In this document: positions 20,777-25,522 of the stretch, in pieces | Layout of the letters: each line of letters starts with the position of its first letter | How positions within the stretch are numbered: the stretch's first letter is position 1 | NCBI RefSeq assembly: GCF_000787575.1 | Contig: NW_012236531.1 | Coordinates: 891,396-955,395, forward strand | Length of the DNA: 64,000 bases | Direction: 5' to 3' | From: Acytostelium subglobosum LB1 | Lineage: Eukaryota > Evosea > Eumycetozoa > Acytosteliales > Acytosteliaceae | Program-made: the position numbers and the translations under genes | Notes under the pieces: model-generated | The model's input: only the letters and a program-made list of their open reading frames with translations | Database searches by the model: none | Told to the model about the DNA's origin: nothing

Positions 20777-22105
20777 ATGAACAGTTGTACAACAACTACA
20801 AATATATTCAAACAGATAATAAATAATAGATGGCTATCAAGGAAGATATTCAATTATGTTGGTTTGATACATGATCAATTGAATGTGAAGAGACACTTAT
20901 GGAATTCATTGATTAAACATTGGCTCATGTTGATACAAGAACCATTGCGCGACAATATAGACCTGACCAGAATGACCATGTCAGTACATTTACCAATGTT
21001 TATTTATTACAAGGGACACCGCAACATTGTTGACTATGTACTGTTGTTAAGACAAGAGAGGTTATGTGATGATGGAACATATTACGACCCTGCATTCGTC
21101 ATTGACTTGGAGTACGTCACCGATTGGATGGCTGCCACTGGTGACCTTGCAATTGTCAAACGTCTGGTCGCTCTTGGACTTGACCCTACGCCTCTTGCAT
21201 TGGACTGTGCCGGCTCACTACAAATGGTTCAATACCTGTGCGCCAATCAAAGACAACAATGCACCAATCAGGCGATGGACAGAGCTGCGGGTCTCGGAAA
21301 GTTGGACATTGTACAGTACTTGCATCAACACAGGTCAGAAGGTTGTACCGCCAGGGCATTGGACAGTGCAGCTGCTAATGGGCATCTCGAAGTGGTAGAG
21401 TTCCTTCATATGAACCGGACTGAGGGGTGCACGACAGATGCAATGGATAGGGCTGCGACCAATGGACACATTAACGTCGTGGAGTACTTGCATCTCAATC
21501 GGACAGAGGGCTGCACAACCAATGCAATGGACAAGGCAGCGGCGAATGGACACGTCAAAGTCTTGGAGTACCTGCATCTCAATCGAAGAGAAGGCTGTAC
21601 TGAAGAGGCAATGGATCAGGCGGCAATGAATGGTTGGTTGGACTGTGTTCAGTACCTCCATCAAAACAGAACTGAAGGCTGTAATGATGATTTATTGGAC
21701 CAAGTTGCTGGCACTGGAAACCTTGCAATGATTGAGTATCTTCATTCAAACATGTTGTTTGAGGGATGTACAACTGATGCCATGAACAGTGCAGCTCAAG
21801 ATGGACAACTACAAGTTGTGGAGTACTTACATCACAATCGAACAGAGGGTTGTACAACTGATGCCATGGACAATGCAGCACGAAACAATCATCTGGATGT
21901 AGTCGAGTACCTACATAACAATCGAACAGAGGGTTGTACACCAATGGCCATCATGTGTGCAATTGGCAATGGTTCAATACCTATGATCCATTATCTCCAC
22001 GAGCATCGAACCGAGTGTCGTATCAATCTCAATGATGCACTTGAGATCACCAAGAATGATGAGATAATTCAGTACATCCAATGTCTCCATATCGGTTCCA
22101 ATTAA
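20777..22105 (+). CDS. ankyrin-like repeat protein (dictyostelid family)
   Basis: Single exon, 442 aa. After an N-terminal region of ~110 residues with a helical start (IFKQIINNRWLSRKIFNYVG) come about nine units of 33-35 residues with consensus EGCTTDAMDxAAxNGHLxVV then EYLHxNRT, the dictyostelid variant of ankyrin repeats. The repeats are also similar as DNA (unit near 102 bp), which points to recent duplication inside the array. Such proteins are multigene families in dictyostelids and are presumed protein-binding scaffolds; no function is known. Two further genes here (29518-31977, 42105-44484) have related but more divergent architecture. Confidence 0.85.
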   Translation: MNSCTTTTNIFKQIINNRWLSRKIFNYVGLIHDQLNVKRHLWNSLIKHWLMLIQEPLRDNIDLTRMTMSVHLPMFIYYKGHRNIVDYVLLLRQERLCDDGTYYDPAFVIDLEYVTDWMAATGDLAIVKRLVALGLDPTPLALDCAGSLQMVQYLCANQRQQCTNQAMDRAAGLGKLDIVQYLHQHRSEGCTARALDSAAANGHLEVVEFLHMNRTEGCTTDAMDRAATNGHINVVEYLHLNRTEGCTTNAMDKAAANGHVKVLEYLHLNRREGCTEEAMDQAAMNGWLDCVQYLHQNRTEGCNDDLLDQVAGTGNLAMIEYLHSNMLFEGCTTDAMNSAAQDGQLQVVEYLHHNRTEGCTTDAMDNAARNNHLDVVEYLHNNRTEGCTPMAIMCAIGNGSIPMIHYLHEHRTECRINLNDALEITKNDEIIQYIQCLHIGSN

Positions 22106-24289: not shown

Positions 24290-24577
24290 TATTATTTGTG
24301 TGATCTATAACTGATTGACCATTAATTTAAAATTGGTGTAATGATGGAGGTTAAGGGTTACCCACTATTTTAATCTAAATGTTTACCAGTAATAAACCTA
24401 GATATGTTGGGTAGATTAGCTTTGATCATTTGTAGGTGTCCATGAAATAGAATATATAGATATTGTTTATATTAGTTTCGCATGCGAAACAAACAAAGTA
24501 GTTGTTTTTTAGTCTTAATATCAAAAGCCCCAAATTTTACACATAAAACAATTGAAACATCTTATTCTTTCACAGTT
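24290..24577. other. AT-rich gap upstream of tRNA-Lys
   Basis: No gene. The last ~22 nt before the first tRNA half (ending TTCACAGTT) are a diverged copy of the spacer that precedes the second and third copies. Confidence 0.4.
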
Positions 24578-24711
24578 GCCCGGATAGCTCAGTCGGTAGA
24601 GCGCACGGCTCTTAACCGATGAAAAATGTATTCCCTTCACAGTTGCCCGGATAGCTCAGTCGGTAGAGCGCACGGCTCTTAACCGATGAAAAATGTATTC
24701 CCTTCACAGTT
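24578..24711 (+). repeat. two tandem 67-bp units, each with a 5' half of tRNA-Lys(CUU)
   Basis: Units 24578-24644 and 24645-24711 are identical. Each starts with the first 41 nt of the adjacent tRNA (acceptor 5' strand, D arm, anticodon loop and most of the anticodon 3' strand, ending AACCG) and continues with a 26-nt spacer ending TTCACAGTT, the same leader that precedes the full tRNA. The halves keep the A box (TAGCTCAGTCGG) but lack the T arm and B box. They are therefore tRNA 5'-half pseudogenes made by tandem duplication. Confidence 0.93.
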
Positions 24712-24784
24712 GCCCGGATAGCTCAGTCGGTAGAGCGCACGGCTCTTAACCGTGTGGTCGGGGGTTCGAGCCCCCCTTTGGGCG
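24712..24784 (+). tRNA. tRNA-Lys(CUU)
   Basis: 73 nt without intron. Acceptor stem GCCCGGA pairs with TTTGGGC (two G-U pairs), with discriminator G. D arm GCTC...GAGC. Anticodon stem CACGG/CCGTG with loop CTCTTAA, so anticodon CTT at 24745-24747, decoding AAG. T arm GGGGG TTCGAGC CCCCC contains the B box. AT-rich sequence follows, with a T run about 25 nt downstream as possible Pol III stop. It is preceded by two truncated copies of its own 5' half. Confidence 0.96.
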
Positions 24785-25522
24785 TAACTTTTATTTATTT
24801 CAGTCGAAGATTTTTTTATGTACTTTTGATCAACTTGTATGTACCGTTTACTGTGATAACTTGATTTTTTTTCTACTTTAATAATACATTCTTAAAGTAT
24901 TGAGCCCAATCTATCTTTTAATATTAATTCTATCTCTCTATCTATTAATTAGTTTACATAAACTATAGGTACAAATTGATAGTTTATTGAAAATCCTTAC
25001 CATCCCCAATTGCACCTGCAAAGACCAATAATAGACTCAAATTATCTATAGAGATGCTGACCTTTAAGTTGTGTACTAAAACTACCAAAGTACATCATCA
25101 AAGTAGATTGCCAAGAATACATTGGTGACAAAGTAAGACCAACTTGGTAGGACACAGAGTAAGTAATGTCCATAGGTGGTGCCAAAGGAATAACCAAAGT
25201 ACATGTTATTTGCCAAAGTAATGGACCCTTCAAGGTTTTGTTCGGAGATTACTTGGATCTTACCATAGTGTACCTTAGTAATTGAAACAAAGGGTGATCA
25301 TACCATTGATCGTACCAATACAAAAAAACAAGTTACATCATCACACACAATCAATTTCAAACACATCATCATCTTCATCTGATCAACCAATCAACCCATC
25401 AATCAATCAATCAACACCCAACAGTAACAAAACAACTACAACAACAATAAGCGACAACAACTAGTTACACATAATAACGTTAACACTACCTACAACTACA
25501 ACAACACAACTACAACAACAAT
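24785..25522. promoter_or_regulatory. gap with five CAAAGTA motifs before the histidine phosphatase gene
   Basis: No gene. The heptamer CAAAGTA occurs at 25086, 25099, 25129, 25195 and 25214 (start positions), all on the + strand within 135 bp, plus the near-copy CCAAAGGAA near 25182. The final 200 bp are CA/AAC-rich leader sequence before the ATG at 25523. Confidence 0.45.

Follow-up and report, generated by a model that had tools for sequence, protein, structure and literature searches.

Tandem 5′ halves of tRNA-Lys(CUU) upstream of the intact gene in Acytostelium subglobosum: a likely DNA rearrangement within a gene family

Why should an intact tRNA gene be preceded by two copies of its own 5′ half? 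The question arises from a 64,000-nt stretch of the Acytostelium subglobosum LB1 genome (contig NW_012236531.1, positions 891,396 to 955,395; hereafter the window), where an intact 73-nt tRNA-Lys(CTT) with both A and B boxes occupies 24712-24784 on the forward strand (ARAGORN call, 24711-24785; Rfam tRNA match, 67.3 bits). Upstream of it on the same strand, as an earlier note on this DNA had reported, lie two identical 41-nt 5′ halves at 24578-24618 and 24645-24685, and these coordinates hold. The array has a period of exactly 67 bp (2.7 copies with 100% matches by TRF), and the first 25 nt of the tRNA occur three times in the window, compared with a mean of 0.00 in 100 shuffles. The locus thus consists of head-to-tail identical units beside an intact gene, that is, a partial tandem duplication of a tRNA gene. 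Reading of the window sequence also bore out that the halves keep the A box only, the B box being confined to the intact gene. The note had assigned each unit its 5′ leader; this is correct for the two 26-nt inner spacers (24619-24644 and 24686-24711, forward strand), which are identical, but not for the outer 26-nt leader (24552-24577, forward strand), which differs from them at 7 of 26 positions. Its observation that the copies show no difference, as expected of a recent or maintained event, extends to halves and spacers alike, and we read it as recent or homogenised. The first run of four T after the tRNA (24789-24792, forward strand) is the likely Pol III terminator. A palindrome around TTTCGCATGCGAAA is present at 24472-24493, ~85-105 bp upstream of the first half.

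The half arrays are real and extend beyond the window to other members of the Lys(CUU) family, and some other tRNA families carry similar copies. Searching the genome (30.7 Mb in 56 contigs; counts from DNA searches are lower bounds) with the locus as query returned at least 11 matches, comprising nine tRNA-Lys(CUU) and two tRNA-Lys(UUU) genes. Halves were found at six of the nine tRNA-Lys(CUU) loci, with two at the window locus (L001) and at L002, one at each of L003-L006, and none at L007-L009. The intact 73-nt sequence is the same at all nine loci, and none of the eight halves departs from its first 41 nt. When TAGC-type A boxes in close tandem were searched for as a pattern, eight matches were listed, all of them pairs of a half and the next half or gene at Lys(CUU) loci; the equivalent TGGC-type search gave 17 matches (control, 3) that by eye were repetitive non-tRNA sequence and were set aside. 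Among the genome matches listed, the 67-bp unit was not found away from Lys(CUU) loci, and a mobile element or tRNA-derived SINE carrying the half was rejected on the same grounds, the halves in those matches being found at Lys(CUU) loci only. The upstream flanks of the half-bearing loci are unlike each other, with similarity fading past about -45 (by eye). On the 3′ side, a 241-nt flank query matched eight of nine loci (itself, six over 168-205 nt, and L003 over 70 nt), with no match at L005. The half-less locus L007 has, 261 bp downstream, an imperfect 25-nt repeat of the tRNA-Lys 3′ end and trailer (66-90 vs. 327-351 from the tRNA start), the only 3′-end copy in the self-repeat map.

To account for the position of the cut, we examined the ends of the unit. 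Each half ends with AACCG (tRNA positions 37-41; 24748-24752, forward strand, in the intact gene), and the same five nucleotides occur in the outer leaders of five of the nine loci (L002, L004, L007, L008, L009), where they adjoin the TATA-like box and where AAAACCG ends exactly 26 nt before +1. Since the half ends at this 5-nt microhomology, the junction reads as a DNA tandem duplication and not as tRNA cleavage; a duplication from the leader site to the tRNA site gives a 67-bp unit, which explains the cut in the anticodon stem without RNA cleavage. Specifically, an ancestral tRNA-Lys(CUU) with the leader ...CATAAAACCG-(26 nt)-tRNA would have undergone tandem duplication of -26 to +41, with breakpoints that, to judge by the junction, were sealed at the AACCG common to leader and anticodon stem. 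The window's own outer leader does not contain AACCG; this is in line with a unit that arrived from another locus, although simple change in the leader would look the same. We also considered that tRNA halves were inserted through RNA, which is unlikely, because the Lys cut follows DNA microhomology and copies at other tRNA genes (see below) include leader sequence, reaching -30 at L020 and -32 at L129 in an ungapped map and farther still at L129 by eye. We judge it likely, with some room for doubt, that the Lys(CUU) halves are a small DNA rearrangement and not an RNA-processing product, combining spread within the family with local copying of a tRNA 5′ boundary. The halves themselves are most likely by-products.

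How the unit came to occupy six loci can be approached through its spacers. Inner spacers differ from the outer leader of their own locus at 5-11 of 26 positions but from the leader of half-less L007 at only 2-3 (3 for the window's spacers, whose nearest sequence this is); the spacer of L006 has 6 differences from the L007 leader and is nearest to the L005 leader, with 5. The spacers being nearer to the L007 leader than to their own outer leaders, the unit did not arise afresh locus by locus, and separate duplication at every Lys locus is ruled out by this comparison. Between loci, inner spacers differ at 0-5 of 26 positions and outer leaders at 3-9, and the first 75 nt of the 3′ flanks are 8-27% apart. 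Likeness of spacers and likeness of flanks disagree: L001 and L004 share an identical spacer with flanks 27% apart, and L001 and L003 show two spacer differences with flanks 8% apart. Because the spacers are nearly alike while the flanks have diverged, the unit has probably spread through the Lys(CUU) family by ectopic gene conversion. It would have moved to other dispersed Lys(CUU) loci through such conversion or through recombination, with the identical tRNA sequence on either side offering the homology for the transfer. L001 and L002 each have two identical spacers, of a variant that differs between the two loci, which suggests that the step from one half to two probably occurred separately at each.

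Common descent of the halves with loss at three loci, instead of conversion, is a possible alternative, given that the conversion route depends on 26-nt spacers and on trees with weak support. In favour of conversion, trees built from leader plus 75-nt flank joined the half-bearing loci into a single group in 0% of 200 bootstraps; a 230-nt flank tree of eight loci (L005 left out) did so in 13%, and no branch was strongly supported in these trees. The halves have accumulated no changes, compared with ~6 in the spacers by our own count (P of 6e-4 or 3e-3 under uniformity, for 17 or 26 spacer sites, respectively). Going by these sequence comparisons, the unchanged halves would fit conversion from the intact genes, or selection. 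The Lys(CUU) family offers a natural test of gene conversion acting on dispersed tRNA genes.

Is such copying particular to tRNA-Lys(CUU)? A first survey covered 85 tRNA genes, 84 with enough upstream sequence and 66 with usable downstream sequence, at a threshold score of at least 11; L003 and L004 were collapsed as duplicates from the 85-gene table and enter the Lys family counts alone. Of 31 stretches in the first B-box sample, 19 contained a confirmed tRNA gene, and the total surveyed came to 100 tRNA genes plus the two collapsed Lys loci. A direct upstream copy of the gene's own 5′ part was found at 12 of 84 genes (four Lys(CUU), three Met, two His, two Arg(ACG), and one Lys(UUU)), with scores that none of 100 shuffles each and no query from another family reached. 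Outside Lys(CUU), these copies comprise the first 14-36 nt of the His, Met, Arg, or Lys(UUU) gene that they precede. Inverted copies occur upstream at 4 of 84 genes (two Pro, one Lys(UUU), one Arg; L123, L109, L011, and L051) and downstream at 1 of 66 (Thr, L020). Copies that we counted score at least 16 except those at L010 (11.5) and L051 (15). In the ungapped map, copies outside Lys(CUU) take in 6-32 nt of the gene's own leader, with only 6 at L052 and none at L051; the inverted copies at L123, L109, L011, and L020 include 7-30 nt. Three weaker direct repeats of the 5′ boundary, upstream of Pro(AGG) L054 (ending at -69), Gly L064 (-127), and Val L116 (-126), scored 18, 16, and 15 in the self-map and 10, 9, and 9 in the survey; neither the 12 nor the eight direct copies outside Lys(CUU) include them.

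No direct downstream copy of a 5′ part was seen among the 66 genes, and no inverted copy of a 3′ part upstream (0/84) or downstream (0/66). Direct 3′-part matches at or above threshold upstream (5/84) were four overlaps of the 45-nt query with Lys halves and one neighbouring intact gene, and those downstream (2/66) were one neighbour and a match of 14 nt at L069, outscored by the query of another family. In the cross-family control the threshold was reached in 195 of 9238 pairs, so matches near a score of 11 are weak. A second sample of 26 stretches added 15 new tRNA genes, a third His gene among them, none of which has a copy (0/15); its sole match, at L134, was a neighbouring intact Val gene. 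The wider tendency is consequently restricted to certain families, or less strong than it seemed from the first sample. Taken with the Lys(CUU) loci, the survey suggests recurrent miscopying of DNA near tRNA promoters and not an assembly mistake. The Lys(CUU) unit would be part of a wider tendency for local copying of the tRNA 5′ boundary, i.e., leader plus the A-box end of the gene, for which the probable route is template switching, or repair by microhomology, where breaks or stalled forks arise just upstream of the Pol III complex. Transfer RNA genes are known fork barriers and retrotransposon targets, and small scars of local copying at their 5′ boundary would make this instability readable from one assembly.

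The positions of the copies raise the possibility of a more directed process. Right ends of the eight direct copies outside Lys(CUU), counted from the ARAGORN gene start, fall at -59, -61, -61, -63, -64, -65, -67, and -88. Seven of eight within a 9-nt window (chosen after seeing the data) was reached in 0 of 200,000 random draws, and four family representatives within 8 nt (hand-picked, leaving out the -88 Arg copy) in 50 of 200,000; both figures overstate the case, because paralogues are non-independent, the window is post hoc, and selection may remove insertions closer than -50. Tentatively, and with the odds against it, the region where Pol III initiates (leader plus A-box end) may be copied repeatedly by a site-directed process and placed immediately 5′ of the TATA/TFIIIB zone, which would give the -59 to -67 ends seen for four tRNA families (His, Met, Arg, Lys(UUU)); at Lys(CUU) loci with halves, the product would have moved the TATA-like box of the gene out of place, leaving the upstream half as the likely promoter. 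Such a process might begin with opening of the DNA by a retrotransposon endonuclease or by fork stalling. If true, tRNA genes would be a recurrent, position-specific source of templated insertions.

The same clustering of right ends at -59 to -67 for 7/8 direct copies could be the footprint of tRNA-targeting retrotransposons, whose endonuclease breaks would be repaired without insertion and leave copies or duplications of tRNA 5′ ends; we consider this rather unlikely. In its favour, of 18 reverse-transcriptase domain matches across the genome, 7 are no more than 5 kb away from a surveyed tRNA gene, with ~0.5 expected. However, five of these seven are downstream of the tRNA gene and two upstream (read from coordinates), and the Lys(CUU) unit joins at -26. 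Target duplications made by such elements are short, and the inverted copies misfit a simple target-site duplication. Nor does the Lys array resemble a duplication of the TRE5 type, as only a 26-nt leader-like spacer separates its units. No element end was seen at a copy, a check carried further upstream, by eye, at L052 (L158) only. The distances at which the D. discoideum element TRE5-A inserts upstream of tRNA genes (80.2% at 47+/-3 bp, range 23-181, in the passages we cite from PMC5391098) lend the idea further support.

Returning to the duplication that we favour, its main likely effect would be on the promoter. In 95 other tRNA genes, a TATA-like [TC]AAA motif peaks mostly at -34 to -32; it is present at -48 to -23 in 80 genes, at the adjoining -74 to -49 in 58, and in each of three windows between -152 and -75 in 31-36. 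The box before the outermost half in the window (ATAAAA; 24543-24548, forward strand) places its TAAA at -34, in agreement with this peak, and no such box precedes the intact gene, where the second half and the inner spacer at 24686-24711 occupy the place of the TATA-bearing leader of other genes. The same holds at the four half-bearing loci compared (L003 and L004 left out), and half-less L007-L009 retain their box. Since the halves put an extra 67 or 134 bp between the TATA-like box and the intact gene, initiation would weaken or shift to the outermost half. This disfavours equal use of the three leaders, at any of which the earlier note would let transcription begin. The note had also seen the halves as a possible source of 5′ tRNA fragments; at the six half-bearing loci there is no T-run longer than two between the outer half and the intact gene, so a simple 41-nt Pol III product is unsupported. 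The family is a natural setting in which to ask whether the TATA-like box of a tRNA gene is dispensable.

It follows that the outermost half might itself be a working promoter, its TATA and A box pairing with the B box 67 or 134 bp downstream, so that the locus would function as a tRNA gene carrying a long insert and the array would persist through its role in setting or regulating the output of tRNA-Lys(CUU). The box placement just described (with a box in the usual place in 80/95 other genes), the lack of a T-run that would block readthrough, and the unchanged halves beside variable spacers all agree with this, yet we hold it to be distinctly improbable. Three of nine family members manage without halves. 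Moreover, in predicted folds of the readthrough transcript (bare RNA; L001 and L006 only), the 5′ acceptor strand of the outermost half pairs with the 3′ strand of the intact gene, with an MFE of -80.5 at L001 and -58.3 at L006, compared with -75.1 and -50.5 when the cloverleaf is forced; such mispairing over the acceptor stem should hinder maturation.

We attach still less weight to the idea that the copies are what is left of earlier tRNA gene pairs, tandem or divergent, in which the 3′ part of the upstream gene was deleted. Intact neighbouring pairs do exist (Thr/Val in L025, Val/Val in L134/L135) and the copies carry leader sequence, but the Lys unit is an exact gapless repeat, and the only upstream tRNA 3′ sequences recovered were the neighbouring intact gene and the query overlap with Lys halves. 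Identical units invite mis-assembly, but an assembly artefact is extremely improbable here, as the 67-bp unit recurs at six loci in one or two copies, with unlike upstream flanks and different spacer variants.

The arrangement is a variant of partial tRNA gene duplication; in the literature searched, judged mostly by titles and opening lines, we found no report of 5′ half arrays in dictyostelids. We presume that the direct and inverted copies resemble the templated insertions made by polymerase theta. Small tandem duplications from break repair are, in the cited part of that work (PMC8355091), likewise short and local to break ends; by comparison, and from sequence alone, the copies here mostly span the tRNA 5′ boundary, recur across tRNA families, and include one unit that spread through a gene family. 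Partial tRNA gene pieces are also described in prokaryotes, whereas those reported here are eukaryotic, nuclear, and 5′ ends situated upstream of an intact copy of the same gene, as far as the comparison with the cited part of PMC9897764 extends. Dictyostelid TRE5, DGLT-A, and NLTR elements integrate at set distances upstream of tRNA genes, according to the passages cited (PMC5006619, PMC5391098), but the Lys units consist of leader and tRNA sequence only, with no element sequence between them. Entamoeba provides a second amoebozoan case of tandem repeats beside tRNA genes, and the cited sections of that study tie active tRNA genes to replication pauses and strand slippage; there, however, whole tRNA units are arrayed with short intergenic repeats (8 bases at one locus), not tRNA halves (PMC2652664). 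Split and permuted tRNA genes share with our loci the presence of coding units for part of a tRNA (PMC3978253, in the portion cited), but here an intact gene is present, and searches within ~250 nt of the surveyed genes revealed neither a matching gene for the 3′ half nor a permuted order. Trans-joined split tRNA genes were rejected as an explanation for this reason, the 3′-part matches being a neighbour pair, half overlaps, and one marginal 14-nt match.

Several other repeats were recorded near the surveyed genes. Downstream of L025, L026, L027, and L070 (Phe, Asn, Asn, and Arg) there is a 54-56-bp direct repeat pair, its members ~112 bp apart and lying at ~+130 to +330 from the tRNA start, which probably represents a tRNA-targeting mobile element. 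The tRNA-Leu(UAG) gene at L041 is flanked by a 66-nt inverted repeat at -201 and +308, and a core palindrome like that of L041 occurs upstream of tRNA-Ser(UGA) at L128. Elsewhere in the window, an ORF at 20777-22105 has tandem ankyrin-type repeats in 84-bp units that are alike at the DNA level, and an encoded helicase shows 83% identity to Heterostelium album PN500 and 71-75% to four other named dictyostelids.
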